From a virus: a DNA stretch of 25,091 bases. Where the stretch lies: positions 1 to 25,091 of IMG/VR virus record IMGVR_UViG_3300017767_001797. One strand, given 5' to 3'. Below the pieces are notes generated by a model that saw only the letters and a program-made list of their open reading frames with translations, was not told where the DNA came from and did not search any database. Positions 2,808 to 24,876 of this stretch are shown piece after piece (the stretch's first letter is position 1; each line of letters starts with the position of its first letter). Made by a program: the position numbers and the translations under genes.

Positions 2808-3331
2808 CTTTGTATATGTTTAGATAGTTCTTTTGCTAATGCTCTGGAGTTTTCTATGTGGCTAAGTGTGTGAAACTCTATGAAATTGAACAGAGGTTCA
2901 GATTTTATGATGTTTTTTATCTTAGTTTCTCTTGATTTCTTGAATTTTTCAGACTGATTGTCTCCACGTTGTTTATGTCTAGCTGCTATTTCTTCTTCAT
3001 TATTCTGCAAAATTACAATCCTCGTGTCATAAGTATTAATTAGATTTATCAGATTATTCTCGGTGAAAAGCCTATCACCTTCAAACAATAGATGTTTTAG
3101 ATTTAAGTCTTTGTAAGTATCAAAATCTTTTTGTACTGCCATTGATAATTTATCAGTACCTGCAAACACTTCGTCTTTGTCGTATATTCCTAAAATAGAT
3201 ATATCGTGCTTCAAGTAACCTCTTAATAAACCATATTTAAACTTTGATTTAGGTTGCAATTCACTAAGAATACAACGCATTAATGTAGTTTTACCACTTG
3301 CAGGAACACCGCCTATAGCTACGCATTTCAT
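2804..3331 (-). CDS. P-loop kinase, candidate 5-hmdU DNA kinase
   Basis: This 175-residue P-loop NTPase begins with a Walker A motif (GVPASGKT, residues 8-15) right at the N-terminus. A Walker B-like strand follows at HLLFEGDRL (about 81-89), with a basic lid region (AARHKQRGDNQSEKFKKSR, residues 116-134). It overlaps the amino acid:DNA transferase candidate by ATGA. In phages with hypermodified thymine (SP10, W-14, ViI, M6), kinases of this general type phosphorylate 5-hydroxymethyl-deoxyuridine in DNA, and they sit beside the transferase. That role here is inferred from the neighbours. The motif alone would also fit a nucleotide kinase or a polynucleotide-type kinase. It is the last gene of the minus-strand cassette. 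Confidence 0.7.
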   Translation of the reverse strand: MKCVAIGGVPASGKTTLMRCILSELQPKSKFKYGLLRGYLKHDISILGIYDKDEVFAGTDKLSMAVQKDFDTYKDLNLKHLLFEGDRLFTENNLINLINTYDTRIVILQNNEEEIAARHKQRGDNQSEKFKKSRETKIKNIIKSEPLFNFIEFHTLSHIENSRALAKELSKHIQS

Positions 3332-4284
3332 AAGGTTTTATACTCCAAAGTACCTGTGTCTAAAAAGACACTATATAAATCTTTTCTAATTGTTTTACTT
3401 TCGTGCAATTTACTAGGCAATGTCTCTGTTCTCGCATCCCAAAAGACTTGCCAATCTATTCCATGCCAATTGTCTGCTTCAACTTTTTTTATTTCTTCTG
3501 CTTGTCTATCAAGATAATATCCCAAGTATCTGCCTTGTTTCTTTCTAAAAACCTTCTTAAAACTACATAAAAGCGTTTCCATCTGGTATAAATCCATGTC
3601 TACAGACAATCCTTTTTGGATTTCTGCCGCCTGTTGCTCAAGATATTGAATGCAGGACACATGTAGTTTTTGATTTATCCAATCATCATGTCCTAATGCA
3701 AAACACAATCCATTCCTATGTGAACGACTACCGCTATAATCTGCTAATTTTAAATTGTTTGGTACTAAGTCTAAGCCAACGCAATCCTTTAATGTTTGTA
3801 AGTAATACCAAGTAGAGTATCTGCCAAATTTGTGTAAATTTTTCTCAACACTATTCCAAATAAATTCAAAAGAATTCCTACGCAATAAATTAGCAAATCT
3901 ATGTCTTTGTGTTTTTTCCTCGTTCTCGTGCATAATCCACCGCTTATAGCTAGCAAACTGTTGTGGTAAATGCCCTTTATTCCATTTAGTATCAGTCTGA
4001 TAGCGTAATCTTGCATAGTTGTTATCATTCCAATCTTGTAATCTTTTTTGGTCTACTAATTCAAAGTCTGGAAACTCATTCCAAATTATCCATGTAGTCG
4101 GTAAATGATAAGTTGTACCATATATCCAACTAATCCAATATTTCTGTTCTATGTTGTGTTCAAATCTATCAAACAAATAATTCAAGAGCCATAATGCAGG
4201 GTCACAATCTTTATTGGTTAATGACCATTCACACCATTCTATAAAGGCTTCTTTCCTGTTTTCTTTAAGCCTGTAGTCAAGCAT
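3328..4284 (-). CDS. Putative amino acid:DNA transferase
   Basis: This 318-residue, mainly helical protein is rich in Trp and Tyr. Conserved-looking blocks include LPTTWIIWNEFPDFELVD (about 62-79), YQTDTKWNKGHLP (95-107), HKFGRYSTWYYLQTLKDC (151-168), DYSGSRSHRNGLCFALG (182-198) and GRYLGYYLDRQAEEIK (about 251-266). From memory these match the phage family first described as alpha-glutamyl/putrescinyl-thymine pyrophosphorylases (Iyer and colleagues 2013) and later as amino acid:DNA transferases (Lee and colleagues 2018). Those enzymes displace the activated phosphate on 5-hmdU with an amine. I could not check this by a search. The adjacent kinase and upstream TET/JBP oxygenase strongly support the reading. 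It overlaps the GNAT gene by eight bases. Confidence 0.68.
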   Translation of the reverse strand: MLDYRLKENRKEAFIEWCEWSLTNKDCDPALWLLNYLFDRFEHNIEQKYWISWIYGTTYHLPTTWIIWNEFPDFELVDQKRLQDWNDNNYARLRYQTDTKWNKGHLPQQFASYKRWIMHENEEKTQRHRFANLLRRNSFEFIWNSVEKNLHKFGRYSTWYYLQTLKDCVGLDLVPNNLKLADYSGSRSHRNGLCFALGHDDWINQKLHVSCIQYLEQQAAEIQKGLSVDMDLYQMETLLCSFKKVFRKKQGRYLGYYLDRQAEEIKKVEADNWHGIDWQVFWDARTETLPSKLHESKTIRKDLYSVFLDTGTLEYKTL

Positions 4285-4894
4285 TTAAGGATTTTCTTAG
4301 CCAGTAATCTTCTACAGATAGTATTGCTTCGTATGTCTGTATTAGTTTTTTCTCTGATAAATGTAAGTATTCTAAATCTTCTGTTTTTAATTTTTCACAT
4401 ACTTTTGTTTCAGGCATAACTAAACTTGGGTCACGCAATGCTCTTTCTCTCAATGCAATTTGTGCATCAATACTAGGCATAAGTGGTTGGTCTGAACGTA
4501 AGCTGCCTTGTTTATCTACTGACCAAAATACTAAACCATTTTTCTTATGAAATCCTATGCTATCAGGAGTACATGAAAGTTTAATCCTTTCCATGCCTTG
4601 CTGATGCCAATACGCTACAAACTCAGACCATATCTGTCTCGCATAGCCTTTGCGTTCTTGCCCTTGTATAGTGACAATCTCATACAAGTTTATATATTTA
4701 GATTTGTCGCTGCACGTTGCGAATATGGCTGCTACAGGCTCATTTTCTACATACAATACTGCAGGTAAGTGTTTGTTATAGTTTTGAAATCTAGTCCAAA
4801 GACTATGACTAGCTTTTAAAAATTTAGTGTTCTTACCTTTTGGTGCGTTATTTATAATATCTTGCACTACTTTTTCTTTTACAAATTTAATCAC
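4277..4894 (-). CDS. GNAT-family N-acetyltransferase
   Basis: This 205-residue protein carries a GNAT core. A beta strand NLYEIVTIQ is followed by the acetyl-CoA loop QERKGYARQI (79-88), matching the Q/RxxGxG/A pattern. Later come IKLSCTPDSIGFHKKNGLVFW (about 104-124) and the usual FHKKNGF-like turn. The C-terminal 80 residues are helical and not part of the minimal fold. Between the amidotransferase and the putative DNA transferase, its likely substrate is an amine installed on the modified base, or the small-molecule donor. In other hypermodifying phages GNATs have been predicted to cap or help tailor such amines. The substrate is inference only. It overlaps the upstream gene by ATGA. Confidence 0.8.
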   Translation of the reverse strand: MIKFVKEKVVQDIINNAPKGKNTKFLKASHSLWTRFQNYNKHLPAVLYVENEPVAAIFATCSDKSKYINLYEIVTIQGQERKGYARQIWSEFVAYWHQQGMERIKLSCTPDSIGFHKKNGLVFWSVDKQGSLRSDQPLMPSIDAQIALRERALRDPSLVMPETKVCEKLKTEDLEYLHLSEKKLIQTYEAILSVEDYWLRKSLNA

Positions 4895-5538
4895 TGTAAG
4901 TCCTCAATCACTTCTCTAATCAAAGATTTACGCATTTTGTTATTGATTATTGTGTAGTCTACGCAAGGCTCTGTTTTTTCGCATTCTGCAATGCCTGACC
5001 TCAGCAATATATCTTTAGTGCTAGCAATAAAAAATGTATTTTCTGTAGCTGCGTAATATAAAGGTCTTTGTTCATTTCTAAAAAAATGTAGTGCGTTTTG
5101 TTGTCTAGTGTCTATTAAAAGAGTTGCCATTGAGCCATGTAGTTTCAGTGGGTGACTTTGATTCTCCCATGTCCTTAATATAATTTCACTGTCGCATTTT
5201 GTTGTGAATTTAAGATTGTAAGTTTCTTCCCAAGTCTCTGGGTCTGCTTGAGTTATTACTCCATTGTGTGCTACTGCTACTTTGTCACTAAACACTGGTT
5301 GGTTGTACTCCAAATCAGATGTGCTGTACCGACAATGCCCTATAATCGTATTAGTCTCTATATCAGGCAGAGTGAAATCTTCTGCAGTTTCAGGCATAAC
5401 ATAAGTTTTGATATTGTCATTTTCAATCCATGCGATGCCTGTAGCATGTTTACCTCTAATCATAGATTGACTTAACATCTCTCTAAAGAGTTGCATATCT
5501 ACAATTTCTTTACTTTGTATACCTAATATCGCACACAT
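4891..5538 (-). CDS. Stand-alone class II glutamine amidotransferase
   Basis: This 215-residue protein is a single class II (Ntn-type) glutaminase domain. Cys2 directly follows the start Met and is the expected nucleophile. It also has RGKHATGIAW (28-37), GHCRYST (67-73, Arg70), AHNGVIT (90-96, the oxyanion Asn92-Gly93) and CDSE (115-118, substrate Asp116). All the hallmarks seen in GlmS, PurF and asparagine synthetase are present, but there is no synthase domain. It may feed ammonia to another cassette enzyme, or act directly as an amidohydrolase or transferase on the modified base. Which one is unknown. It shares one base with the oxygenase gene. Confidence 0.88.
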   Translation of the reverse strand: MCAILGIQSKEIVDMQLFREMLSQSMIRGKHATGIAWIENDNIKTYVMPETAEDFTLPDIETNTIIGHCRYSTSDLEYNQPVFSDKVAVAHNGVITQADPETWEETYNLKFTTKCDSEIILRTWENQSHPLKLHGSMATLLIDTRQQNALHFFRNEQRPLYYAATENTFFIASTKDILLRSGIAECEKTEPCVDYTIINNKMRKSLIREVIEDLQ

Positions 5539-6452
5539 TAACTCAGTTTCTCGCCTTTAGTCCTCGCTTTGGCTCTTTCTATTTCTGCTTCTGCATCTAA
5601 ACAATGGTGCATTTTTTTTCTGTAGTAACAGACTATGCTAATCCTTTCATATGCTAATTTTGCTTTGATTTCTGTATTTGCGTGGTACTCATGCACATTA
5701 AAAAAACACACATCACCGCTTCTTACGTCAAACGCTACCCTAAATCTAGGGATAACTGTATATCCGCCTTCGTATTTACCTGCTTGTAATACAGCTAAAT
5801 TCCCTAAACCCTCTTTCAAATCACCTGCGTCAGTGTGTAAAGCAGTTCTAAAGTTTTTATTGACAGTAATTGTTGTGAAAACAGTATCTTTTATCATAAA
5901 GTCTTTTTCTGTTTTATCAGCCATTTCCTTTTGATTATTATATTTTTCTGGACAGGCTTCTTCAAATAAGTTGTTAATACATTTTATGTAAGGGTATGCA
6001 TCAGCGAATTGTTTAAAGTTTTTCTCGTACCATGTAGTTTGCCTACAGTAAGGAAATCTTGCACCCCTATCAAAATAACCTACAATCCCTGAATTTACTG
6101 TATTTGCTCTAGATGTATTGCTTAGTATTCCGTCTTTTCTAACACCTTTGAATCTTATTTTTTGTAGGTCGCCTATATCCCAATCATCTTTTGTATCATC
6201 GCTAATAATCCCACCTGCTGCTCCTCTATTGTTAGTAGGTGCTGCTGCACTTCTTAGAGTGGTATATGCTTGTTTGCATAGTTCTGTAGGTATTTTGTTT
6301 TTTCTAAAAAAGAATAGCGGATTGCCTTCTTCGTCGTATGCATCGCAATCATCTCTGATAACTAAGTCATAATCGTTTTCATCTACCCAATCACCTTTTC
6401 TTTTAGCAATTTCTTCTTTAGAACAATGTGCCTTTAGATTATAGACTTTCAT
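5538..6452 (-). CDS. TET/JBP-type 2OG-Fe(II) dioxygenase
   Basis: This 304-residue protein carries the iron-binding triad H206-x-D208 and H257, with the 2-oxoglutarate-binding Arg at about R270 (RISIV). The surrounding pattern reads ITVNKNFRTALHTDAGD, then GKYEGGYTVIP, then SGDVCFFNVHEYHANTEI. The upstream region has RGAAGG (76-81) and TVNSGIVGYFDR (118-129). This arrangement is typical of the phage branch of the TET/JBP family, which oxidises the 5-methyl group of thymine or 5-methylcytosine in DNA. Beside a 5-hmdU kinase candidate and a DNA transferase candidate, thymine is the more likely substrate, giving 5-hydroxymethyluracil. It overlaps the ParB-like gene by 14 bases. Family assignment is strong; substrate is inferred. 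Confidence 0.85.
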   Translation of the reverse strand: MKVYNLKAHCSKEEIAKRKGDWVDENDYDLVIRDDCDAYDEEGNPLFFFRKNKIPTELCKQAYTTLRSAAAPTNNRGAAGGIISDDTKDDWDIGDLQKIRFKGVRKDGILSNTSRANTVNSGIVGYFDRGARFPYCRQTTWYEKNFKQFADAYPYIKCINNLFEEACPEKYNNQKEMADKTEKDFMIKDTVFTTITVNKNFRTALHTDAGDLKEGLGNLAVLQAGKYEGGYTVIPRFRVAFDVRSGDVCFFNVHEYHANTEIKAKLAYERISIVCYYRKKMHHCLDAEAEIERAKARTKGEKLS

Positions 6453-7065
6453 TTTTGAAACTCCTTTCTACAGCTTCAAATACTGTATCTGTAAGGTTTT
6501 CTTTTTGCCATTTCTCTTTAAGGTTTGCAATCATTTCTTGGAACTTAGGTTCAGTTTCACTATTTAAAAATATATTTACCATACGCACATTACTGGTCTG
6601 CACCTCTCCGAAATCTTCAAAGTTATCCTCAGTGACTATAGTTTCTGGTTCGTCAAACTCTAACATTGAAGCTGTCATTTTTTCTATTTCATCAAAATTG
6701 AATCCAGTAAGGTCTAAGTCATAATCTGAGTCTGCCAATTTTGCAAACTCTCCTGCTAATAATTCATTATCCCATTGTGAAAAGTCCTGACTTTTATTGT
6801 CCATAATCCTGAACGCTGTTTTCTGCTGTTCTGTGAGGTCTTTTGCAATATGTACAGGCACTTTGTCTAATTGTAGTAACTGTGCAGCTTTGAGCCTTGT
6901 ATGACCTGCTAATATCACATTGTCCTCATCTACAATAATAGGCACTTTCCAACCTACTTCTTTAATGCTCATTACTACCTTTTCTACTGATTCTTTATTT
7001 ATTCTTGGATTATCAGCGTATTCTTTTAAATCCAAAATGTCTGTCATGTTTACTTCGTAGCTCAT
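6439..7065 (-). CDS. ParB/sulfiredoxin-fold protein
   Basis: Residues 8-75 form a ParB-N/Srx domain: DLKEYADNPRINKESVEKV, then VGWKVPIIVDEDN, then the phosphate-binding GHTRLKAA (54-61) and VPVHIAKDL. The remaining 130 residues are acidic and helical (LDLTGFNFDEIEKM), without a recognisable helix-turn-helix. Phage proteins of this type often sit by DNA methylases or modification genes. Some have nuclease or CTP-binding activity, and they may direct modification enzymes to DNA. It follows the Cro-like gene closely; its ribosome site TTGGAG lies at the end of that gene, and the stop TAA is two bases before this ATG. Confidence 0.85.
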   Translation of the reverse strand: MSYEVNMTDILDLKEYADNPRINKESVEKVVMSIKEVGWKVPIIVDEDNVILAGHTRLKAAQLLQLDKVPVHIAKDLTEQQKTAFRIMDNKSQDFSQWDNELLAGEFAKLADSDYDLDLTGFNFDEIEKMTASMLEFDEPETIVTEDNFEDFGEVQTSNVRMVNIFLNSETEPKFQEMIANLKEKWQKENLTDTVFEAVERSFKNESL

Positions 7066-13455: not shown

Positions 13456-13899
13456 TTATACATTTATCCATTCTTTACCATTGAATAACAAAGATTCAGC
13501 TTCACGTCTCCTAATCAAACCTTCTAATGTTTTGCCTGCCGCTTTATTCCACCTTCGCATTTCGCTGCCGACTTGTTCAAATTTAGCCTGATTTAATACT
13601 TTAAGCATAGTGCTGCTTCTTAAGTTTCCAACACCAAGATTGAATGTCCATGCGACTAATGCATCAAACTGATTCTGTGATAAAGGTACAGTGACTTCTT
13701 CTTCAACATACAGTTCAAACTCTTTTATATCATCTTCTAAAAGCTGTTCTGCAACTTCTTGTGTAATTGTATCGCCTTCTTTAACTCCGCTAGTGTGTCC
13801 ATAACCTATTGTAAGCACGTTAGCACTGCACAAATAACTTTCTAAACGACAACCTTCAAATTTTTTAATTAAAGATAAACCTTCTTGTGATGTCTGCAT
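13456..13899 (-). CDS. GH24 endolysin (lysozyme)
   Basis: This 147-residue phage lysozyme has a catalytic triad E15-x8-C24-x5-T30 within LIKKFEGCRLESYLCSANVLTIGYGHT; the Cys takes the place of the Asp of T4 lysozyme, as in P1 Lyz. NQFDALVAWTFNLGVG (92-107) and LIRRREAESLLF (129-140) are standard GH24 features. It cuts the glycan strand of peptidoglycan at the end of infection. The start is fixed by GGGGAGGA six bases upstream; a longer reading to 14055 would overlap the nuclease gene and adds no signal or membrane segment. Without a signal-anchor, release should depend on a holin. Confidence 0.93.
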   Translation of the reverse strand: MQTSQEGLSLIKKFEGCRLESYLCSANVLTIGYGHTSGVKEGDTITQEVAEQLLEDDIKEFELYVEEEVTVPLSQNQFDALVAWTFNLGVGNLRSSTMLKVLNQAKFEQVGSEMRRWNKAAGKTLEGLIRRREAESLLFNGKEWINV

Positions 13900-13900
13900 A

Positions 13901-14299
13901 TTATCCTCCCCATGTTCCATCATTTTGGACTTTGGCAGTTTTCTTGCCACCCCAGTATTCAACTGCGTGTCCTTCTTGTACAAGCATTTGACATATATCT
14001 TCGCCATTCTCAGTATGCGGTATGCCAAGGATTCTTCCATATTTGCCTTTTCCAAGTGATTGTATTTTGAAAGAGCCTACACATAATTCTATAAGCCTTT
14101 CTTTAGCTTTTAATCCTAAAGCCTTTTCTTCTAAGTTTCTAGTTCTAGATTCTGGTGTATCTATCCCTGCTAGTCTTACTCTTTGTTTATGTAAGAAACA
14201 AGAAAATCCCAAATCAAGAGTCACATCTATGGTATCTCCATCAATTACTCTTTCTAAGATCGCATTATATACGAATGGTGTGACTGTTGACTCAGACAT
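13901..14299 (-). CDS. SNase-like thermonuclease
   Basis: This 132-residue protein matches the staphylococcal-nuclease OB fold. ERVIDGDTIDV (16-26) supplies the calcium-binding aspartates. RLAGIDTPE (42-50) gives catalytic R42 and E50. GKYGRILG (85-92) gives R89. It hydrolyses DNA and RNA with calcium. No signal peptide is visible, so it acts in the cytoplasm unless released with lysis. It sits between the small membrane protein and the endolysin, with no gap on either side, so it is coexpressed with lysis. Possible jobs are host nucleic-acid scavenging, superinfection exclusion, or clean-up of viscous DNA at burst. Confidence 0.92.
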   Translation of the reverse strand: MSESTVTPFVYNAILERVIDGDTIDVTLDLGFSCFLHKQRVRLAGIDTPESRTRNLEEKALGLKAKERLIELCVGSFKIQSLGKGKYGRILGIPHTENGEDICQMLVQEGHAVEYWGGKKTAKVQNDGTWGG

Positions 14300-14503: not shown

Positions 14504-14890
14504 CTACTTTTTTCCAGAATCCTCTTCAGTTTCTTTTTTGTCATATTCTCTGTAATACTTAACTACAGATAATATATTGTTTGTATATCTAGTAATTTCT
14601 GCCATGTTTGTAGATAAATTTTCGTATTGTTGGGTAGTTAATGCGTAATAAGGTTTTGCAGGTGCTTTGCCTTCTTTTACTAAGTCTAAGTACTCTTGCA
14701 TTAGTTCTGGTGTAAGTATTTCAAACTTCACATCTACTAATTGCATTTCTAAAGGTAATGGTGGGTGGTACATTGGTGGTACTTCTGCAATAGTCCTAAC
14801 CTCTACAGGCTTTGCTTTCGGCAATATACTACACCCACTTATGAGTAAACCTAAAATCAAAAAGCTAATTATTTGTAACTGATTCTTCAT
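14504..14890 (-). CDS. Outer-membrane spanin lipoprotein (Rz1-like)
   Basis: This 128-residue protein has a signal peptide ending in the lipobox LISGC (Cys20), then a Pro-rich stretch (ILPKAKPVEV, VPPMYHPPLPLEM) and a helical region (LTTQQYENLSTNMAEITRYTN) with a charged tail. It is larger than lambda Rz1, but the position (starting inside the end of the Rz-like gene), the lipid anchor and the proline content match an o-spanin. It would join the i-spanin across the periplasm to fuse the membranes at lysis. The ATG at 14890 is preferred; a TTG nine bases earlier would add three residues. Confidence 0.75.
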   Translation of the reverse strand: MKNQLQIISFLILGLLISGCSILPKAKPVEVRTIAEVPPMYHPPLPLEMQLVDVKFEILTPELMQEYLDLVKEGKAPAKPYYALTTQQYENLSTNMAEITRYTNNILSVVKYYREYDKKETEEDSGKK

Positions 14891-15278
14891 TTTTGTCAAA
14901 CATATTAGGGTTAGTTATATTTATAAGGTTATCCATGACTCTGCCACTAGCCTTATTGACCCTAGTTTCAATAAGTTTTGGTTTCATTAGTGCCAAATTG
15001 TTTAAATCATGCCTTGCAAATTTGTTTCTTAATTCTGTTACTGCTCTATTTGCTTCTGCTTTTTCTATTTCTAGAGCATCTAACTGTGCATTATGTCTCT
15101 CTTGATTGGCTAAATACGTTTTAATTGATTCGTTTTGCTCTGTGATTTTGCCCTCTAAGACTATTTGATTGCCTTGCAAGATTGCCATTTGGTTGTGCAA
15201 ATACTTTATGTAAAACGCAGAACCACTTACAGAAGCCAACAACAACCCTCCCAATATCAAACTAAGTTTAAATCCCAT
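14865..15278 (-). CDS. Inner-membrane spanin (Rz-like)
   Basis: This 137-residue protein has an N-terminal membrane segment (residues 5-24) and a periplasmic coiled coil (about 28-95, ILQGNQIVLEGKITEQNESIK, then ERHNAQLDALEIEKAEANRAV). HDLNNLALMKPKLIETRVNKAS follows, a stretch familiar from phage Rz-like proteins. It overlaps the lipoprotein gene by 26 bases and the cyclase by 11. The pair would act after endolysin cuts the wall. This is evidence that the host is Gram-negative. The family is assigned by topology and order rather than sequence search. Confidence 0.78.
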   Translation of the reverse strand: MGFKLSLILGGLLLASVSGSAFYIKYLHNQMAILQGNQIVLEGKITEQNESIKTYLANQERHNAQLDALEIEKAEANRAVTELRNKFARHDLNNLALMKPKLIETRVNKASGRVMDNLINITNPNMFDKNEESVTNN

Positions 15279-17025
15279 ATACTTTTAAAGCCTTTTCTTT
15301 ACCTTTTACTTTAATCTCTTTCACTAAGTGTAAATCATGTTTAGTATTTTTTGCAGTGTTTTCTCCTATTAATAAGTCAACACCAACATCTTTTGTAGCT
15401 GATTCTAACCTAGCAGCAGTATTGACAGAATCGCCAATAGCAGTATAGTCAAACCTAGATGAACTTCCCATATTCCCTATTGTTGATTGCCCTGTGTTTA
15501 TGCCTATTCCTATGGCTATGGTCGGCAATGCTTCCTTTTTAAGTTCTTCATTCAAAGATTTCATATTCTCTACTATTTGTAAAGCACAACTTATAGCTGC
15601 ATCTTCGTGGTTTTCTAGGTCTAAAGGTGCATTAAATATTGCCATGAGTGCATCCCCTATATACTTGTCTACCATTCCTGAATATTGTTGTACTGCTTCT
15701 TGTTGTGCAGTTAGTGCTTTATTCATTATGTATGTTACTTTTTCTGGCGGCATAGACTCTGACATAGATGTAAAACCTCTGACATCTGTGAATAAATAAG
15801 TAGCGTTCCTTTTTTCTCCGCCTAGTACGAGTAACTCAGGATTGTCCTGTAAGCGTTTAATTTGTCTTGGGTCTAAGTAATGCTCAAATTGTTTTTTAAT
15901 TTCTAATCTTAATTTGAATTGTTCCCTGAATCTTAAATAGAAAGCTACCGCACCTGTTATAAATTGTGACAACAAAGTCCATGTTACATCAATCAATATG
16001 CCTTTTTGTATTAGGTAATATCCAGAAGCCGCTGTAATCAACATTAATAACGTAGCTATACTTATACCCAATGTTATCCCAAAACTGCTTAGAACGAGCC
16101 ATATGGCTATCACTGTGATAAAAAGCATAGCAATCTCGGCTGCTAATGCATAATCAGGTACAAATGGACTATTTTCTATTAACAAAGATTCTGACAATGC
16201 TGCTTGTATATAGTGTGGCTCTAACAAACCAACTGGTGTAGCTAATTGCGGCATTACACCTTTTGCTGTTACACCAACAAATACAAATTTATTTTCTACT
16301 TCCATTTCAGACAATGAGGTTTCACGTGGAACAATCCAAGATATCCATTTTCTACCGAAACTATCTGTCTTGACTGGATTTATACCTTTGACTGTTATTT
16401 CCTCTATACCATTATCATTCGTTTTTATAATGTAAGTATCTGCACCAGTCAGAGATTTCAAAACTTGTGTGCCGAAAGAAGCAATCCAACCATCAGGAGA
16501 TTTGTATAACAAAGGTATTCTTCTTACTAAATTATCAACATCCACAGGTGCTGATGCAATTCCTTCTAGTGCATTTAATCCTTTAATATTCTGTACTGTA
16601 CCGCCAGAAAGAAAACCACCTTTTCCTTCTCCTAAAATAACTGTTCCAGTTGTTTTTGGATATATACCATTATTGTTTTCAAACAAAGCTATGACTGAAG
16701 GCGAATAAGACAATGCTTCAGCAAAGTATTTATCACCACCAAACCTGTCTGCATGTGGGAATGCTAGAACCCAACCTACACCCAATGCACCTTTTCTTAG
16801 AAGGTCTATATGTATTTTTGCTAATGTTTCTCTTGGAAAAGGGTAACCACCTGCTGCATCAACATCGGCTTCTGTTATATTTAATATTGCGAAATTTCCA
16901 GAAGGTGCAGGAGTTTCTATTAAATAATCAAATGTTTTGAGTTTTAATATTTCTGTTGGTGTACTTTGGAATATAAGTGGTAGTGATAATACTAACAATA
17001 AACATAAGCCAAATTTATAATTCAT
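15268..17025 (-). CDS. CHASE2-domain class III adenylate cyclase
   Basis: This 585-residue protein has an N-terminal hydrophobic segment (5-19) and a periplasmic CHASE2 sensor (about 25-285, with FPRETLAKIHIDLLRKGALGVGW and FVFVGVTAKGVMPQLATPVG). Three membrane segments follow (about 292-313, 316-337, 342-364), then a linker and a cytoplasmic cyclase (405-580). All catalytic residues are visible: metal ligands D414 (FTDVRGF) and D458 (KYIGDALMAIF), base-binding K454 and T528, and transition-state N535 and R539 (GDSVNTAARLES). Thr at 528 favours ATP, making cAMP. An active membrane cyclase is highly unusual in a phage. It overlaps the FecR gene by ATGA and the spanin by 11 bases, so it is part of the late operon. 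Confidence 0.95.
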   Translation of the reverse strand: MNYKFGLCLLLVLSLPLIFQSTPTEILKLKTFDYLIETPAPSGNFAILNITEADVDAAGGYPFPRETLAKIHIDLLRKGALGVGWVLAFPHADRFGGDKYFAEALSYSPSVIALFENNNGIYPKTTGTVILGEGKGGFLSGGTVQNIKGLNALEGIASAPVDVDNLVRRIPLLYKSPDGWIASFGTQVLKSLTGADTYIIKTNDNGIEEITVKGINPVKTDSFGRKWISWIVPRETSLSEMEVENKFVFVGVTAKGVMPQLATPVGLLEPHYIQAALSESLLIENSPFVPDYALAAEIAMLFITVIAIWLVLSSFGITLGISIATLLMLITAASGYYLIQKGILIDVTWTLLSQFITGAVAFYLRFREQFKLRLEIKKQFEHYLDPRQIKRLQDNPELLVLGGEKRNATYLFTDVRGFTSMSESMPPEKVTYIMNKALTAQQEAVQQYSGMVDKYIGDALMAIFNAPLDLENHEDAAISCALQIVENMKSLNEELKKEALPTIAIGIGINTGQSTIGNMGSSSRFDYTAIGDSVNTAARLESATKDVGVDLLIGENTAKNTKHDLHLVKEIKVKGKEKALKVYGI

Positions 17026-18188
17026 GAGCTTTGTTTAATTGTTATAGTGGAATCTCCACCACCATTAATCTTAACTACATTTGAGACACCATCTTGCACA
17101 ATAATTAATGTATATGAGCCGCTACCATCTAAATCTAATTGCATAGAATCTGATACTTGTCGTCTAAGTGATATTTGTTGTCCTGTTATAATTGTAGTTA
17201 TTTGCGTGTCTGTATCTTTGCCAATATTAGTGCCTGATATTTTAATACCAGTCGCCTGTAAGTTTAGTTCATCTTCGTCCTCACCTATTGCTAAGGCATC
17301 TAAGATATTTAGTAAATCTTCTAGGAAATTCACATCTAAATAATTTATATCTAACTCGGTAAACTGTAATTCATTTCTATTGTCTAAAAAATCTTCTGCT
17401 AAAAAATCAATGTCTAAGTCATTGAAGTCCAAATAGTCTGCAGACTTTGTTTGTTGGCTTTCTTCAGCATAAGATACATTTTGTTTAGGTGGATTCACAA
17501 TCAACATATTGTCTATAAATTCTAGGGTAAGGTCTAAAATAACAGGTTTACTAGGCATATTCGTAAACAGTGTAGCTGTAGTGGATTCATAAGGTTTGTT
17601 CAATGTTACGCTTCCCATACCAGTAGATACTATAATTTCACCACTAGAAAGACCATTGATATCAGGTAGCAAAATAATAAGACTTCTTCCGAACTCGTCT
17701 ACAGTACAAGTAAAATCTGTACCACGAATAGCTATATTTGCAGTTGGTGTTTGCAAAGTAATGTTTTTTTTGTCTATCTTATTAAGACTGCCTGTAATGA
17801 ATCTAGCAGTACCACTAGCAAACTTGAGTGCCATTTTAGATTTAGAAGGATTAGGGTCATAGATGTATTCATCTATTATCAAAGAAGAATGTTCGGTTAG
17901 TTTTACTTGTGATTCATCTAAAAATTCAATAGCAATACGTCCATTAGATGTCCTTACATCATCAAGACTTTGTATAGGAAATTTTATTGTCGGGTCATAT
18001 TCATCATCTCTGATGACTTTTGTATAACCGCTTAACTCTTTAACTTCTCCAATATCAGCAACCGACTGCTGTGCCTTGATCGTTTTGGTTGATACACACA
18101 ACGCCAGAACTACCAGTACTTTCCACTTTAAGCCAGTCGTTATCAAGTGTACTAGCTTGGTCAATATTGAATGTTCTGCTACCGCCAT
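17022..18188 (-). CDS. Secreted FecR-domain protein
   Basis: From the ATG at 18188 the product is 388 residues. It has a signal peptide (about 20-39, GLKWKVLVVLALCVSTKTIKA) and a FecR domain (about 75-200) with FLDESQVKLTEHSSLIIDEY, LKFASGTARFITG and LQTPTANIAIRGTDF. A low-complexity Leu/Asp-rich stretch (250-300) follows. The C-terminal 50 residues (MQLDLDGSGSYTLIIVQDG, then SNVVKINGGGDSTITI) resemble a curlin repeat. Such proteins often lie next to CHASE2 cyclases in bacteria, so it may deliver a periplasmic signal. The 5' end overlaps the curlin-like gene by up to 134 bases in another frame. TTG starts at 18164 or 18146 would give a shorter signal peptide; none has a clear ribosome site. 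Confidence 0.85.
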   Translation of the reverse strand: MAVAEHSILTKLVHLITTGLKWKVLVVLALCVSTKTIKAQQSVADIGEVKELSGYTKVIRDDEYDPTIKFPIQSLDDVRTSNGRIAIEFLDESQVKLTEHSSLIIDEYIYDPNPSKSKMALKFASGTARFITGSLNKIDKKNITLQTPTANIAIRGTDFTCTVDEFGRSLIILLPDINGLSSGEIIVSTGMGSVTLNKPYESTTATLFTNMPSKPVILDLTLEFIDNMLIVNPPKQNVSYAEESQQTKSADYLDFNDLDIDFLAEDFLDNRNELQFTELDINYLDVNFLEDLLNILDALAIGEDEDELNLQATGIKISGTNIGKDTDTQITTIITGQQISLRRQVSDSMQLDLDGSGSYTLIIVQDGVSNVVKINGGGDSTITIKQSS

Positions 18189-18765
18189 CGTGCGTAAGGT
18201 GGAAATATCCGCCTGCATATCCATCTCCATTATAAGTTACTGTGTTATCACTACCATCTAAACTCATATAGTTTGTTGCACCATCTACATCAATAGCTGC
18301 AGTTATGCTGTTATTACTACCTTGTATAATCCAATCAAGGTCTAACTGACTCGCCAAAGCAGATGTTGCATGATTTAGTGTAAAGACATTTGAGCCACCT
18401 GTCACATCAACATTAACATTTGAGCCATCAGCACCAAACGCATTTGTTGGGTCTGTCTGCATATTAAATACATTGCTGCTGCCATCAAACTCAAAAAAAC
18501 CTGTGTAATTATCAGCCCAAATATCACCTAAGAATTTATTGGTAGAACCAATCATATTTATATCAAGCGTCATACTAGCACCATCTAAATCTAGTGCAGT
18601 CATAGAACCTGCAGTAGAACCAGTACCACCTATGATGTTACCAGAACCCATTTGCTCTATATCAGCATTAAAAGTCGCACCTGACTGATTTATATACACT
18701 TCATTATCTGCTGCATAAACGATTGTGCCTAACAACAGAGCTATTACTGTTAATAATTTATTCAT
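18055..18765 (-). CDS. Curlin-like secreted repeat protein
   Basis: This 236-residue protein has a clear signal peptide (1-18, cleaved after IVYA) and no further membrane segment. The mature part begins NEVYINQSGATFNADIEQMG, which fits the curlin pattern Q-x-G-x-x-N-x-A-x-x-x-Q. About eight further strands follow with a recurring G-S-x-N core (GSGNIIGG, GSTNKFLG, GSSNVFNM, GSNVNVDV, GSNVFTLN, GSNNSITA, GSDNTVTY). It is rich in Gly, Ser, Asn and Asp and nearly free of Lys, as expected for a beta-solenoid amyloid subunit. Cys224 and Cys236 could form a disulfide. TTGGAG lies nine bases before ATG. It would be exported through the CsgG pore encoded just upstream. Confidence 0.78.
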   Translation of the reverse strand: MNKLLTVIALLLGTIVYAADNEVYINQSGATFNADIEQMGSGNIIGGTGSTAGSMTALDLDGASMTLDINMIGSTNKFLGDIWADNYTGFFEFDGSSNVFNMQTDPTNAFGADGSNVNVDVTGGSNVFTLNHATSALASQLDLDWIIQGSNNSITAAIDVDGATNYMSLDGSDNTVTYNGDGYAGGYFHLTHDGGSRTFNIDQASTLDNDWLKVESTGSSGVVCINQNDQGTAVGC

Positions 18766-19564
18766 CTTTTATACTCCAATGATTTGCTTGAACTCCTTTC
18801 TCAAGAGTTTTCAGAACTGCAGTTTCTATAGCTGCTTGGAGTGCAATATTGACTGATTCGTTTTCGGTCATACCATTCTCTATCTCTACTAACTCTGTGT
18901 CATTAGCCACAAATCTAAATATGTCTTGGCTTATCCCATAACTCAAAATAGTTTTGGAGACCAAGACTTCAATTAAAATGCGACCAGTAGATACTGATAC
19001 TGTGCGTAAAGAAACTATTACTGTATCTTCTCGGTATTCTTTACTGGCTCCAATGCCTAAATACCTCGCACCATAACCGCCTGATTTAACATTGCTCTCA
19101 TATCCTACAACACTTCCTTCCATGAGTAAACCTGCAAATAACAAAGGTGGCAACTTATCTTCATCTTTGAATTTCTCCCTAGCTGACCTAATAATCTGCC
19201 TTTCTTTGCTCAAATTATCTAATCCTGTACGTTCTACCACATCAAAAAAACTACATTTGTTCTGTGATGCGTGTTGTAAGGCTCTAATTAAGTAAATATG
19301 AGGTGCTTGTGTTACAGCAGTACTAAAGGTTGCAAAATTACTATTTCCTCGTCTTTGCCCTGTTTGGTCAGTAAATGCGGTAGGATAAACTGCTATAGTC
19401 GGCTTTCTAGTAGGGCATGAAAAATCAGCTAATTCTTTTACAACTAACTCTCCTACTTCTGCTTTTTTTATTATAGGTACTTCTTGTAAGTAACCACTTG
19501 TAGCACAACTAGAAAGTAAAACTACCGATAGGCAAAGTGATAACAGTCGTACCACCTTCGGCAT
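18758..19564 (-). CDS. csgG: CsgG-like curli secretion pore lipoprotein
   Basis: This 268-residue protein is a clear CsgG homologue. The lipobox LLSSC places the lipid on Cys20. Then come PTIAVYPTAFTDQTGQ (56-70), FSTAVTQAP, LSKERQIIRSARE (118-130), MEGSVVGYESNVKSGG (148-163) with GARYLGIGAS (165-174), and LVSKTILSYG (201-210). In E. coli, nine CsgG subunits form the outer-membrane channel that exports CsgA and CsgB. By eye, the Phe of the E. coli constriction (Phe56) is kept as F80, while Asn55 appears as Thr79. The start is uncertain: ATG at 19594 or TTG at 19609 would extend it. It overlaps csgF by 56 bases or more. Confidence 0.95.
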   Translation of the reverse strand: MPKVVRLLSLCLSVVLLSSCATSGYLQEVPIIKKAEVGELVVKELADFSCPTRKPTIAVYPTAFTDQTGQRRGNSNFATFSTAVTQAPHIYLIRALQHASQNKCSFFDVVERTGLDNLSKERQIIRSAREKFKDEDKLPPLLFAGLLMEGSVVGYESNVKSGGYGARYLGIGASKEYREDTVIVSLRTVSVSTGRILIEVLVSKTILSYGISQDIFRFVANDTELVEIENGMTENESVNIALQAAIETAVLKTLEKGVQANHWSIKDE

Positions 19565-20045
19565 CAGTAATCGTAAGCGTAATGAAATCTCCATCAGTTG
19601 AGTATTCAATCGTATTTCCTTCCAATGTTATAGTTCCGCTCTCACTAGAGGTTTCACCAAACAGGTTTTCAACTAACTGTCTAGATAGCTGTGCATATAT
19701 TCTACTCTCAAGATTACGAATAAATCTAGCTAAAGTAGTATTTTCTGCTTCTCGCTTTAATTCTTCTTTATATGCTTCTATTTCTTCTTTGATAGCCTTT
19801 TTTCTATTGAATTGTTGATTTTCTATAGTCAGATAATGACTAGAAGTGCCGACACCTGAAAAACTAGGACTTTTGAATTTGAAAACCATTTCGTCAGCTT
19901 CTAAATTAGTTGCGAAGATTCCGCCAAGCAAAAAAATCCCTACAGCTACAGCAAACCAAACAATTTTTTGTTTACTAGCTTCTTCTTTTCTTCGTCTGAG
20001 TTCCGCTTTGCTCGGACGTCCTCTTTTTTTCTTTAGTTCCGCCAT
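19509..20045 (-). CDS. csgF: CsgF-like protein with membrane anchor
   Basis: The C-terminal 125 residues of this 178-residue protein match CsgF: MVFKFKSPSFSGVG (53-66), YLTIENQQFNRK, then RIYAQLSRQLVENLFG (115-130) and DFITLTITDAEGGTTVITL (153-171). In E. coli, CsgF caps the CsgG channel and couples nucleation to export. Here the usual cleaved signal is replaced by a strongly basic lead (KKKRGRPSKAELRRRKEE, 5-22) with an AT-hook core RGRP, then one membrane segment (28-46). The protein may be an inner-membrane-anchored form, or the segment may be cleaved near residue 50. It overlaps the upstream gene by 71 bases. GAGGAG lies 13 bases before ATG. Confidence 0.88.
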   Translation of the reverse strand: MAELKKKRGRPSKAELRRRKEEASKQKIVWFAVAVGIFLLGGIFATNLEADEMVFKFKSPSFSGVGTSSHYLTIENQQFNRKKAIKEEIEAYKEELKREAENTTLARFIRNLESRIYAQLSRQLVENLFGETSSESGTITLEGNTIEYSTDGDFITLTITDAEGGTTVITLPIGSFTF

Positions 20046-20286
20046 TGTTCAACTTATTCTCCTCTTTCAATTCAAGAACAGTATTTACTTTCTGTTGTAA
20101 TCGTATCATATCTTGGTCTAAAAGACGTAATTGGTCAGTTAATCTAATTATAGTGCCTTTCATTTCTTGTATAGCAGGGTCTATTATGTTGGTAATAGTC
20201 TGCCACACAAAATAAACAAAATATCCTAAACCAACAACCATAACTACAGGAAAACCAAAATCTGCTATTAGCTGAACAACGTCCAT
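19975..20286 (-). CDS. Small membrane protein with coiled coil
   Basis: This 103-residue protein has one N-terminal membrane segment (residues 5-31, QLIADFGFPVVMVVGLGYFVYF), a heptad-like coil (36-75, IIRLTDQLRLLDQDMIRLQQ) and a Lys/Arg-rich tail (residues 84-103, GGTKEKKRTSEQSGTQTKKRRS in part). It resembles the next gene upstream and belongs to a general BhlA/UviB-like class sometimes implicated in host lysis. Its basic tail is encoded over the basic start of csgF, in another frame. Holin-like or virion-associated roles are possible; neither is shown. Confidence 0.65.
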   Translation of the reverse strand: MDVVQLIADFGFPVVMVVGLGYFVYFVWQTITNIIDPAIQEMKGTIIRLTDQLRLLDQDMIRLQQKVNTVLELKEENKLNNGGTKEKKRTSEQSGTQTKKRRS

Positions 20287-20582
20287 TAATCCCTTCTAGC
20301 ATCAATTTTGCCATCTTCAACAAAGTTTTCTGCTCTTGCAATCCTAGCTAAATCTGGACTCAAATCTAATGCACTAGAAACTGAAACATCTATTCTAATT
20401 ATGTCGTTATTCATAATTGATGCTCTTGTTATCAACATTTTAGTTATACCCTGAATAGTTTTTATCTCAGCTACTAATCCATCCATTAGCTGCTTCATCA
20501 CTAAGAATATAAAGTAAGCCATTACTAATGCACCTGCTATCGGCAATCCAACCTTTTCTATAAGGTCAAATACTTCCATCAA
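20286..20582 (-). CDS. Small membrane protein, paralogue of its neighbour
   Basis: This 98-residue protein shares the same plan as the gene downstream: D-L/x-I-x-K-V/F-G-x-P at the start, one long membrane segment (about 8-30, VGLPIAGALVMAYFIFLVM), then a helical region (residues 38-75). DLSPDLARIARAENFVEDGK follows and is not shared. The two genes meet at a single base, suggesting a tandem duplication that has diverged. BhlA/UviB-like holins have similar size and topology. No closer assignment is possible by eye. Confidence 0.65.
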   Translation of the reverse strand: MMEVFDLIEKVGLPIAGALVMAYFIFLVMKQLMDGLVAEIKTIQGITKMLITRASIMNNDIIRIDVSVSSALDLSPDLARIARAENFVEDGKIDARRD

Positions 20583-20926
20583 TCTTCGCCTTTGAACTTC
20601 TTACTTTGTCCTGATGTTCCTGCATAAATACCAAACACAGCTGCCATTGCACCGACAACGATAGAAACTAAGGCAGACTGCTCTAGGTTTGGTTCTGGCA
20701 ATTCCATAAACCAAATCACAACTTTATACAAAAGCACTATATAAACACTTACGAATATCCTTGGAAATATTCTCCATGCATCTATGGTTTTTGCTAAATG
20801 CACCCATTTTGCATAAGGATTTTCGCCTAAATTGTGAGGTGTAACATCTATATCTAATTCAAGTTTTTTCTTGATTGGTTCTTTGTCAGTTATAACACCT
20901 TCTGCTATTACTTTTTCTTCATTCAT
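20579..20926 (-). CDS. Two-span membrane protein (marine phage type)
   Basis: This 115-residue protein has a polar N-terminal 45 residues, then two membrane segments (about 54-75, IFPRIFVSVYIVLLYKVVIWF; about 86-105, ALVSIVVGAMAAVFGIYAG). The block KTIDAWRIFPR before the first segment is a stretch I recall in many marine phage hypothetical proteins. Its function is not established. Location between tail and lysis genes makes a holin or membrane-active role plausible. It overlaps both neighbours by 4 to 8 bases. Confidence 0.7.
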   Translation of the reverse strand: MNEEKVIAEGVITDKEPIKKKLELDIDVTPHNLGENPYAKWVHLAKTIDAWRIFPRIFVSVYIVLLYKVVIWFMELPEPNLEQSALVSIVVGAMAAVFGIYAGTSGQSKKFKGED

Positions 20927-21140: not shown

Positions 21141-21526
21141 TAGCTTGGTTGTGTTGGAAAGGTTGTGTTTTCTACTGTGTTGCTCTCGCTATCAGTATAA
21201 GAAGCCATCATATCTCTCAAGGCTTGACGATAGGTTGCCCATTCTGCTTTCTTGCTATCTGTTAAAGCTGAGTCAGGCATTTGTGTCCAATCTGATTGAG
21301 CTAAAAGCGTGTTTCTTTTACTTCGGACAAGAAAAGTATTAGAGTTTGATATATAAGGGATTGCATAGTCTACAACTTGTGTACCATTCCATTTTTTATG
21401 AAATATAGTATAAGTGCCTTCTACATATCCAAGCGTATTTGGTAAAATAATTTCATCCAGACTAACTACAGAACGATTTTGTATAATCTGTCCTGTTGAC
21501 TTGTTGTATATAGAAACTGCTATCAT
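21140..21526 (-). CDS. Tail fibre assembly-like protein
   Basis: This 128-residue protein ends in a block typical of phage tail-fibre assembly chaperones: LLAQSDWTQMPDSALTDSKK (about 74-93), followed by AEWATYRQALRDMM (94-107). The N-terminal half is beta-rich (IYNKSTGQIIQNRSVVS). Such chaperones help fold or trimerise the fibre made by the gene before them, here the tail-tip protein. The start at 21526 overlaps the tip-gene stop as ATGA and is preferred over 21595, which would reach far into it. Confidence 0.75.
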   Translation of the reverse strand: MIAVSIYNKSTGQIIQNRSVVSLDEIILPNTLGYVEGTYTIFHKKWNGTQVVDYAIPYISNSNTFLVRSKRNTLLAQSDWTQMPDSALTDSKKAEWATYRQALRDMMASYTDSESNTVENTTFPTQPS

Positions 21527-24500
21527 CTGAACAATCCAAAAACTGTAGCTGAGTATTGCATATTTGGAATGGTCACTCCAAATAATCCTCCCCAAATATA
21601 AATATATTTTGTAGTCGCAGCAGAAGTAGAAGTAGTGACATCAAATTTTAAACCTACTGCCATCGTAGAGACTTGTACCGCATTCTGATACAAATTGACA
21701 CTTGATGTACCAACCCAATTTCCTGACACCAAAGAGCCACTTTGAGCAAAAGGAGAAGAGTTTATAGCACCATCACTTGTGTAACTTGCGTTATCACTTA
21801 CACCTATAGCTGCCAGTGAAGCGTTTGCTCCTCCATATAAATAACCTGATACTATGAAATTACCCACATTAGCTTGTCTTGTTGAAGCTATTCCTACAGG
21901 GTTGACTGCTAATTGCACTAAATAGGTCTTAGTTTCCGCAGTTTTCGTAGCAGGAATAGTCAACGTAATAACAGAACCACCAAGAAGTTCTGGAACTGAA
22001 TAAGAAGTTCCTGTTCCTGTTGTAGCTGTGTTACTGAAGGTGTGTGTGCCTTGTGCAGCAAGTACAGCTCCAATAGTATTTGGGTTTACATGGCTTACAC
22101 CATCAAAAGTTCCTACCTGTAAACCATTAGCGGTGACTGTAAGCGTAGTGCCATTAAGATTAATATTATTAGCATTAAGGTCTCCTGTAGTTATATTACC
22201 TGCATCTAAATTAGTGATACTCATATTAGTACCATTAATTGTTCCTGCGGTAATCGTTCCTACATTAGCAGATATAGCTGACAAGGTGGAGACATCAATT
22301 TTGTCTGATGTAATTGCATCTGTGACTATCTTTGATGCACCAATCGTACCATCAACCATCATATCTCCAGAGACAAGGTTGCTAACTTCTGACCAAGAGC
22401 TACCGCCATACTTATAGGCTTTGGACTGGTCTGGGTTAGTGTCTGTCCTAGTAACTATAATCATGTCATTGGTAACTGGGTTTCTACCTGATATAGCACT
22501 GAACTCAGAATTGCTTGGTGCGTTGGTGTTACCTGTTTTGCTTTGGTAGAAGAAAGAAGCTCTATCTACATTTGATACAATGCTTTCTGCACTTGTGACT
22601 GTTGTAAAGTTTCCTGCACCCACTGCTACGAAACTTGAATGCACATCACTGTGATTCACTGCTCTTAACCAATAGTAATAAGTAGTACCTGCAGTCAAGC
22701 CATTAACTTGACCATCTATCCATGTAGAAATAGAGTTAGGAGAGCCATATTGCGTATTTACTAGACCATCTGAGTCACTACTGGGAGTGCTGTTTGCTGT
22801 CTTTCTGTATATTTTGACTGCCTTTAAATCAGAGTTATTAGGGTTAGTGTAAGTAATAATCATGTTTAAAGGTTTGCCTGTACTTACAGAAGCACTACTG
22901 GGGTCACTTGGAGCTGCACTGGCAGCAGCTATAGTGATATTTACATTACTTATGTATGCTGAATAAATACCTCTATCTGAGAAGTGTCTGAGTCTTACAT
23001 TGTATTGCTGTCCTGCGGTGACATTTGGTATAAAACCTTGACTTGTACCTGCTCCCACGACAATAGCTTGATAAGCTGAATCTGTAGATAGCTTGTATGA
23101 TATTTCAGTACCAAATAAATATGGAGAAGTGCTGTTTGTCCACGATGCTTTAATGTTTATTTTGGATGTAGTGCCATCAAGTGTAAGCACTTGCGAAAGC
23201 GATAGACTGCTTGGTTGTGACATCTCAAAAGAACCTGCAGGAACTTCGCTTATTGGTCCTTGCGTTACAGGTGTTACATAATCATTTGATACAAAGTCAT
23301 AAACTGCCGATTCTATTTCTTTAAGTACAAGTCTTGTAGCTGCAGCAGGAACGTCATTTTGCTCTATAAATTCTAATTGTGTTGATATGACTTCAAACAT
23401 TTTATTTGTGTAGCCTAATCTTTCATTAGTGACATAGACAAAATCTGCAGGTTGTAGCCTTAAATATTTTGTAGTGACTAAACCGCCTATATGTAAAGAT
23501 TTTCTTTGATGCTGTAACGATATTTTTGATAGTCTTTCTGCTGTGGTGACAGTTTGTGTGTAAGGTAGTTGCAACTCCATTCTTTTTAAGTAGTTTGAGT
23601 TAGCTTCTCCGCTTGGCACATCTTCAGAAACAAATGTAGAGTTAGTCAGTTCTGGAGTATCTGTTCCTACATAGTTATTATTTTTGTCAACGAATACAGC
23701 TTTTACAGAATTAAATAACTCATTAGAAGCAGTGTTTTTTGTTATTTGTAATGGAGATAATAGATCATCATCTGTGATTGTTAAACTAGGTGTCTGTGCA
23801 GCAGCTACAAACAAGTTAAACATGCCATTTGTGAATGTTAGTTTACCGCCACAAGAGCTTAAAAGACCCTCTAATATCCCATTGCCATTTGCACTAAAAT
23901 TAGTAAAGCCATTAGCTGTATATCTTTCTTCACTTACACCGCCTACATTTGATACTGTTTGTTCACAGGTATTTGCTGCAGACATGAAACCACCTGCATT
24001 TGCAGTTAAATTCAGTTCAGTAGAAGTGCCTTTAATTCCATAGGTGGTATTGCTCAAAAAATCTAAGACACAGAGAGCAGAATTATCTGACCATGCATAG
24101 GTAGATTCTGTTCCCAATCTATGTGAACCACTACCGCCAACAGAAGAGTCAAGTCGTGGGTCATAGAGTTTTTTTCCTTTGATAACTGCTGTAATTTTAG
24201 GAAGCTGTGGCATGTTTTCACTGTCATAGATAAGTTCTACATACATATAAGCACAATCTTTTAGCTTAAAATTACTGTCAATAACTGTACTGCCATGTGT
24301 AGTTCTTGCTAATGAATCATGTGCGTTTTGGCTACCATTGTGAAAAGTAAATCTTGCTAATCTACCACTGCCAAAATTATTGTCATTTTCAGTGTTAGTA
24401 AAGTCTGAGTTAGTAACTGTATAAATTTTGTTGTCTGTTCCTGCACCTGACGAGGTTGCAGCACTGGTAGTGACTGTAGTTTCATTAAAATTAATGCTTG

Positions 24501-24876
24501 TAAATGAATCAACTTGATGTCCTGCAAAAACAACATACATAGATAGCTTGTTATTATCTGTGCCAGTTGTACGCATCATAGTGATAGTGCCACCAACTCT
24601 AGTTTCACCATAAATTATTTGTCTTGGGTTTAAAGCTCCTCTTGTAGTTGCCTTCGCACCAAAGTTAGCGTTATTAGCTTCAATACCTTTTGAGGTCATT
24701 TGACCTATACCTGCAGCAATCAAAGTTGTTGCAAAAGTCATAACCGCCATACTTGCAGCGACACTTAATCCACCTATCGTAAAGCCTGTAACCGCAAACC
24801 CTGCTGCACCTGCTGTAGCCACAACAGCAAAGACAATCACTGCTGCAATTACTGCTGATTTTATTGCTTTAGCCAT
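21523..24876 (-). CDS. Tail tip / host specificity protein (J-like)
   Basis: This 1117-residue protein has the architecture of a siphovirus central tip protein. A Gly/Ala-rich, hydrophobic N-terminus (1-60) is followed by NPRQIIYGETRVGGTI (about 82-97), characteristic of J-like proteins. Tip-base domains run to about residue 540. Two fibronectin type III-like domains follow (roughly 555-655 and 660-760; SAYQAIVVGAGTSQGF and TYYYWLRAVN). A repetitive stretch (DGTIGASKIVTDAITSDKID) then leads to a beta-rich C-terminus (about 930-1117), the likely receptor-contact part. It would adsorb to the host surface and trigger ejection. The preceding partial gene overlaps its start by eight bases. Confidence 0.9.
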   Translation of the reverse strand: MAKAIKSAVIAAVIVFAVVATAGAAGFAVTGFTIGGLSVAASMAVMTFATTLIAAGIGQMTSKGIEANNANFGAKATTRGALNPRQIIYGETRVGGTITMMRTTGTDNNKLSMYVVFAGHQVDSFTSINFNETTVTTSAATSSGAGTDNKIYTVTNSDFTNTENDNNFGSGRLARFTFHNGSQNAHDSLARTTHGSTVIDSNFKLKDCAYMYVELIYDSENMPQLPKITAVIKGKKLYDPRLDSSVGGSGSHRLGTESTYAWSDNSALCVLDFLSNTTYGIKGTSTELNLTANAGGFMSAANTCEQTVSNVGGVSEERYTANGFTNFSANGNGILEGLLSSCGGKLTFTNGMFNLFVAAAQTPSLTITDDDLLSPLQITKNTASNELFNSVKAVFVDKNNNYVGTDTPELTNSTFVSEDVPSGEANSNYLKRMELQLPYTQTVTTAERLSKISLQHQRKSLHIGGLVTTKYLRLQPADFVYVTNERLGYTNKMFEVISTQLEFIEQNDVPAAATRLVLKEIESAVYDFVSNDYVTPVTQGPISEVPAGSFEMSQPSSLSLSQVLTLDGTTSKINIKASWTNSTSPYLFGTEISYKLSTDSAYQAIVVGAGTSQGFIPNVTAGQQYNVRLRHFSDRGIYSAYISNVNITIAAASAAPSDPSSASVSTGKPLNMIITYTNPNNSDLKAVKIYRKTANSTPSSDSDGLVNTQYGSPNSISTWIDGQVNGLTAGTTYYYWLRAVNHSDVHSSFVAVGAGNFTTVTSAESIVSNVDRASFFYQSKTGNTNAPSNSEFSAISGRNPVTNDMIIVTRTDTNPDQSKAYKYGGSSWSEVSNLVSGDMMVDGTIGASKIVTDAITSDKIDVSTLSAISANVGTITAGTINGTNMSITNLDAGNITTGDLNANNINLNGTTLTVTANGLQVGTFDGVSHVNPNTIGAVLAAQGTHTFSNTATTGTGTSYSVPELLGGSVITLTIPATKTAETKTYLVQLAVNPVGIASTRQANVGNFIVSGYLYGGANASLAAIGVSDNASYTSDGAINSSPFAQSGSLVSGNWVGTSSVNLYQNAVQVSTMAVGLKFDVTTSTSAATTKYIYIWGGLFGVTIPNMQYSATVFGLFR

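Follow-up and report, generated by a model that had tools for sequence, protein, structure and literature searches.

Known curli systems and the present locus

Curli export genes in phages were described by Wittmers et al. (2022), who reported the order 'HK' (histidine kinase)-CsgF-CsgG-CsgA/B-FecR-(CsgA/B)-AC (adenylate cyclase) in HTVC023P-type podophages and pelagimyophages (PMC9599517), a type VIII secretion system (T8SS) module that lacks CsgE and moves between phage families. CsgGF was also discussed, with 'sibling capture' and lysis-timing models, by Zaragoza-Solas 2020 (PMC7029224) and Buchholz 2022 (PMC9004378). Here we analyse a curli-type module in 25,091 nucleotides of marine phage DNA (IMG/VR record IMGVR_UViG_3300017767_001797, positions 1 to 25,091; hereafter the window). 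An earlier note on this DNA took the combination of genes to be unfamiliar, but CsgF-CsgG-CsgA/B-FecR-AC was published in 2022 for pelagiphages; what is new is a third phage lineage that carries the set, together with corrected assignments of its parts. In the window, the module consists of the following genes:

20286..20582, minus strand: smA, 98 amino acids with a single apparent membrane helix; PHROG 18771; opens the transferable module
19975..20286, minus strand: smB, 103 amino acids, diverged smA paralogue; PHROG 18771
19509..20045, minus strand: CsgF, predicted extracellular pore cap; Pfam CsgF 1.9e-20; F-x-F-x-x-P-x-F motif after an apparent signal peptide
18758..19609, minus strand: CsgG, predicted lipoprotein outer-membrane pore; Pfam 1e-49; solved CsgG 3x2r, E 3.2e-45; lipobox LLSSC
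18055..18765, minus strand: curlin-like secreted beta-solenoid, presumed substrate; assigned from orthologues and predicted structure
17022..18230, minus strand: FecR-domain protein; signal peptide, FecR domain, acidic conserved motif, C-terminal Q-x-G-x-x-[NKR] strand
15268..17025, minus strand: CHASE2 sensor, membrane helices and class III nucleotide cyclase; all catalytic residues present

The five larger open reading frames (ORFs) lie where the earlier note placed them, all on the minus strand and each overlapping the next, and the gapless run with tail genes on one side and spanins on the other is borne out by ORF overlaps, Pfam and PHROG alike. The note overlooked the two small membrane-protein genes at 19975-20582, so its block was correct in the five genes and too short in extent. 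Pfam matches for CsgF, CsgG, FecR, CHASE2 and Guanylate_cyc all exceed the curated cut-offs; Curlin_rpt matched orthologues and not the window copy. CsgF, CsgG, FecR and the cyclase also fall in phage PHROGs without assigned function (35372, 20175, 37870 and 35576).

As in the modules of Wittmers et al., CsgF, CsgG and CsgA/B are contiguous and ordered, followed by FecR and AC. The FecR and AC ORFs share 4 nt, and no second CsgA/B lies between them; such a copy is frequent but not universal in the published modules. The window differs from the pelagiphage module in its siphophage lineage; the 'HK' genes, of which the published modules have one or two ahead of CsgF, have small counterparts here that lack a kinase domain, and FecR is reinterpreted below as a partner of CHASE2. 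HTVC008M and Melnitz (PMC7029224, PMC9004378) carry a homologous block in the same order with two smA/smB-like genes upstream, but they are T4-like, the block is distant from the lysis genes and there is a second curlin-repeat protein. In HTVC008M this protein (L082:10501-11826) has a PA14 domain (2.7e-6) before the repeats (Curlin_rpt 5.2e-8), which suggests a carbohydrate-binding tip. Escherichia coli curli (csgBAC/csgDEFG) and the window share the CsgG pore, the CsgF cap and, presumably, secreted curlin-type repeats, whereas the window lacks CsgE, has a diverged substrate and adds FecR and a cyclase. In the CsgG pore-constriction loop F56 is retained and Y51 and N55, by alignment to 3x2r, are not. 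The FecI-FecR-FecA iron regulator has only the FecR domain in common with the window; its anti-sigma domain, sigma factor and TonB receptor are not in the window set.

The assignment of the window's curlin-like gene to CsgA/B rests on orthologues and a model. Curlin_rpt matches 10 of 17 phage orthologues (best 3.6e-5), and an AlphaFold2 model gives an all-beta chain with a predicted local distance difference test (pLDDT) of 81 and a predicted template modelling score (pTM) of 0.76, that matches 'Curlin associated' phage proteins best (E 4e-8, TM 0.72). Searches of solved structures with the curlin-like protein, CsgF and FecR returned nothing useful.

The CsgF ORF starts at 19968-20045 (minus strand) with an AT-hook-like stretch, KKRGRPSKAELRRR, that overlaps smB, and its annotated N-terminus may extend too far; contigs L054, L057 and L062 have similar RGRPSKA stretches.

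Proteins of the smA type (81-116 amino acids) have a single apparent N-terminal membrane helix and a coiled coil, with only weak, scattered Pfam matches (YvrJ in 6/22). The 2022 label 'histidine kinase' is rejected for smA, which has no Pfam kinase domain; HATPase_c was found in 0/13 phage records, with a positive control in 14/14 genomes. We count smA as part of the module because DNA similarity across phage lineages starts at its first codon.

A third phage lineage and exchange of the module

The window and its 53.8-kb sister contig (G001) have no protein in common with HTVC023P by proteome comparison, and membership of that group is rejected on this basis. Four other types of module-bearing contig do share core genes with HTVC023P, among them, where the contigs are more complete, terminase, portal and capsid. 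The sister contig encodes the proteins of a siphophage: large terminase, portal, HK97-type capsid and protease, tape measure, major tail, distal tail and the central tail fibre protein J. Its capsid and terminase reach at most 49-51% identity to isolates. Judged by gene content, the window thus belongs to a third module-carrying lineage, one of uncultivated siphophages. The assembly is sound at the junctions of the module: the near-identical contigs L002 and L003, from two other samples, keep the gene order, and L002 covers both junctions, which rules out the chimaera that the earlier note had raised as a concern.

A CsgG-based survey matched 240 viral contigs, and 80 loci were read; the contigs are partly the same or near-identical viruses, and the locus counts below are therefore non-independent. 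The recurrent order is smA-(smA)-CsgF-CsgG-Cur-FecR-(insert)-AC, where Cur is the curlin-like gene, and wherever a locus extends more than 2.5 kb beyond FecR the cyclase is present (60 of 60). In a second sample, based on J, the module or its start was found in 22 siphophage loci (L003 and L004 from the CsgG survey among them) and was absent from two, L144 and L158. Conservation of the gene set and its order among viral contigs, which the earlier note proposed to examine, is therefore strong. The module genes are under purifying selection: the ratio of nonsynonymous to synonymous substitution rates (dN/dS) is mostly 0.05-0.2 in every gene tested.

Several pieces of evidence indicate that the module moves between lineages: (i) Between the smA start codon and the FecR end (7079 to 10422 in L075), DNA identity of the siphophage contig L075 to the HTVC023P-type contigs L039, L048 and L051 is 80-82%; it drops to 68-70% in the cyclase gene, and elsewhere there is no similarity. 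(ii) For the pair L075/L048, dN is 0.05-0.12 in CsgF, CsgG, Cur and FecR, against 0.27 in the cyclase, 0.77 in Rz and 0.41 in lysozyme. (iii) In a tree of CsgF+CsgG+Cur+FecR, siphophage modules stand at five places, several of them within HTVC023P-type groups, and the starred branches force at least five changes of lineage label; contigs with short flanks (e.g., L042, L053, L055, L058) have unsafe labels, and no conclusion here rests on them. By these sequence comparisons, most of the module is exchanged between phage lineages. The module is now known in three unrelated tailed-phage architectures, and the tree requires repeated exchange between two of them, which argues that selection favours the whole secretion-plus-signalling unit over a single gene.

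The slot between FecR and AC holds an inserted gene that reads as a C5-cytosine methyltransferase in L039, L040, L048 and L051, and different small genes in other contigs; a second curlin gene was considered for this slot in the relatives, and the extra genes there have no curlin repeats. A scan of genome contigs with a single CsgG sequence gave one match, apparently a phage contig binned in a Marinimicrobia metagenome-assembled genome (MAG). L100 (PBPT01000002.1), a module-bearing phage contig, is binned in a Candidatus Neomarinimicrobiota MAG, which is either a binning error or a hint of the host. A CsgG match labelled 'Salmonella phage' was discarded as a 1.5-kb unverified contig that is probably host DNA.

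Neighbouring genes and module-free relatives

Upstream of the module in the window are J and a tail-fibre assembly gene, and downstream the order is Rz, Rz1, SNase and GH24 lysozyme:

21523..24876, minus strand: central tail fibre J-like protein; PHROG 5616 and 31; siphophage lineage marker
20579..20926, minus strand: TM3, small membrane protein, holin-like by position; retained where the module is missing
14865..15278, minus strand: Rz-like inner-membrane spanin; PHROG 739; downstream neighbour, outside the module
14504..14899, minus strand: Rz1-like outer-membrane spanin; PHROG 812; downstream neighbour
13456..14055, minus strand: GH24 phage lysozyme of the lysis cassette; Pfam 5.1e-48

Because the module lies on the same strand between tail and lysis genes, it is probably expressed late. 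Counts of promoters and terminators were no higher than in shuffled sequence.

The two siphophages without the module have other genes between TM3 and Rz. L158 encodes two proteins there, 375 and 750 amino acids long and each with an apparent signal peptide, and retains TM3, Rz, Rz1, SNase and lysozyme. Homologues of both (373 and 745 amino acids), likewise with apparent signal peptides, are present in L144 along with a few small genes, and L144 retains TM3, Rz and Rz1 as far as its contig end. The smaller protein is Asn/Thr-rich and the larger one acidic (L144:9073-12401, L158:6002-9351), and neither has a Pfam match above cut-off. The slot thus looks like one for secreted proteins, and since both phages keep their lysis genes the module is dispensable for lysis.

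FecR and the CHASE2 cyclase

The FecR domain is matched in the window protein (Pfam 2.8e-11) and in 17/17 phage orthologues. The true start probably lies inside the annotated ORF, as a short signal peptide ending in KAQ can be read out of frame across the 3' end of the curlin-like gene. The FecR domain is followed by an acidic motif, ELDINYLDVNFLEDLL, related to one in HTVC008M and Melnitz, and the conserved C-terminal strand carries Q-x-G-x-x-[NKR] and finishes in I-x-Q. No Pfam domain other than FecR, an N-terminal anti-sigma domain included, was found in the window protein. No FecI or FecA gene (sigma factor, TonB receptor) was seen nearby, the neighbours being the curlin-like gene and the cyclase.

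The same adjacency of FecR and CHASE2 cyclase occurs in cells. The two genes are adjacent in Ruegeria, a marine Rhizobium and a Marinimicrobia genome and divergently arranged in Ensifer, and a CHASE2-cyclase/FecR cluster has been published for Campylobacterota (PMC9239204). The cellular pairs differ from the phage module in that none of those checked has curli genes beside it and some have TPR repeats. Because the phage FecR sits beside a CHASE2 cyclase, as in the cellular pair, a role as iron regulator is unlikely. A gene that resembled CsgG by eye upstream of FecR-CHASE2 in the Marinimicrobia MAG of the CsgG scan was dropped, the tested part having no Pfam match.

The cyclase ORF matches CHASE2 (2e-23) and Guanylate_cyc (3.1e-20) in Pfam. 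Both metal-binding Asp residues and the transition-state Asn and Arg of class III cyclases are present, and D414, K454, D458, N535 and R539 are invariant in 16/16 aligned cyclases, including the strongly divergent cyclase domains of L057, L063 and L046. At L057:10469-12286 the cyclase domain is very unlike that of its relatives and resembles that of HTVC008M, with a CHASE2 half that matches L075 (86% DNA identity over the half); cyclase domains thus differ, or have been swapped, between modules. The closest solved relatives are adenylate cyclases, and Lys454 together with Thr528 (Thr/Ser in relatives) presumably fits class IIIb adenylate cyclases. The predicted product is cyclic AMP (cAMP), with cyclic GMP (cGMP) less likely. 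No cyclic nucleotide-binding protein was found in the phage records, which may be incomplete, and any cAMP would on this basis act through the host or outside the host. In S. meliloti, a cyclase without CHASE2 is constitutive (PMC5498481), so CHASE2 can act as a brake.

Proposed function

We propose that the module exports a curlin-like surface protein late in infection, with FecR reporting the state of the envelope to the cyclase, and assign this reading a probability of about 0.5. CsgG would form the outer-membrane pore and CsgF its cap, through which the curlin-like protein would reach the surface of the infected cell. FecR, predicted to be secreted by Sec, would sense the periplasm or the state of export and signal to the CHASE2 domain, which would set cyclase activity. 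The cAMP (less likely cGMP) would act on a host receptor, proposed because of the missing phage-encoded binding protein. These roles agree with those that the earlier note gave the parts (pore, cap, substrate, periplasmic signal protein and sensor cyclase). Alteration of the host surface is the likeliest benefit, through adhesion or aggregation of cells and debris or through shielding against other phages; the note's suggestions of superinfection block, host-surface change and cAMP reprogramming are all possible roles. The alternative cargo in L144 and L158, which is also apparently secreted, counts in favour of surface export.

Several observations weigh against this proposal. The window's curlin-like protein has no Pfam match of its own above cut-off and few canonical Q-x-G-x-x-N repeats. 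CsgE is absent from 13 phage records (E. coli control positive), which upholds that half of the note's 'no CsgE or CsgC', no search for CsgC having been made. The FecR structure model is unusable (pLDDT 41), the host cAMP receptor is putative, and export, fibre formation and cAMP production are predictions. Finally, Melnitz-infected cultures showed no clumping in the study of Buchholz et al. (PMC9004378).

Alternative readings

FecR might itself be a CsgG substrate, in an export checkpoint with FlgM-like logic: retained in the periplasm when export is blocked, it would set the CHASE2 cyclase, and on leaving when export runs it would change the signal. We regard this as unlikely. The apparently cleaved signal peptide, the conserved C-terminal strand and final I-x-Q are consistent with it, the best profile match between the FecR and curlin-like alignments falls at the C-terminal end of FecR, and FecR and the cyclase always occur together where both are visible. 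However, that match is a weak one of 12 columns at a probability of 4%, the Curlin_rpt profile fails to match FecR, and the localisation of FecR is predicted. The fuller version, in which FecR exits via CsgG like curlin and its presence in or absence from the periplasm tunes the infected cell or late infection by fibre export, is rather improbable.

A role in lysis timing, proposed for Melnitz (PMC9004378), would make the CsgG/CsgF pore a gated outer-membrane hole or a pinholin-like trigger that aids virion release. The module does abut Rz/Rz1/lysozyme in the siphophages and in several HTVC023P-type phages, and smA and smB have weak YvrJ and holin-like matches. Yet L158 and L144 manage without the module, L158 with a complete lysis cassette; the module of HTVC008M has no lysis neighbours; and a conserved curlin-like substrate, FecR and a cyclase would be unneeded, although all are under purifying selection. 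The earlier note's suggestion that the block aids lysis is weakened accordingly, and we consider it doubtful that lysis timing is the function.

Nutrient import, an option raised in PMC7029224 and PMC9599517 in which an ungated CsgG admits larger nutrients and FecR is an iron-related regulator, is highly improbable: the absence of CsgE, the periplasmic gate, could leave the pore open, but CsgF and the curlin-like protein would be left without a function, FecR has no other Pfam domain and no FecI or FecA gene in view nearby, and the cellular FecR-CHASE2 pairs point towards cyclase signalling.

Returning to surface export, the purpose of phage curli becomes testable with a module that is dispensable for lysis, a slot that takes other apparently secreted proteins, and a dedicated FecR-CHASE2-cyclase branch. 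Dropping 'histidine kinase' and 'iron regulator' rids current models of two misleading labels.

Elsewhere in the window, the genes at 2804-7065 (minus strand) form a predicted DNA hypermodification operon: a TET/JBP oxygenase, a glutamine amidotransferase, a GNAT protein, an ADDT amino acid:DNA transferase, a P-loop kinase and a ParB-like protein.

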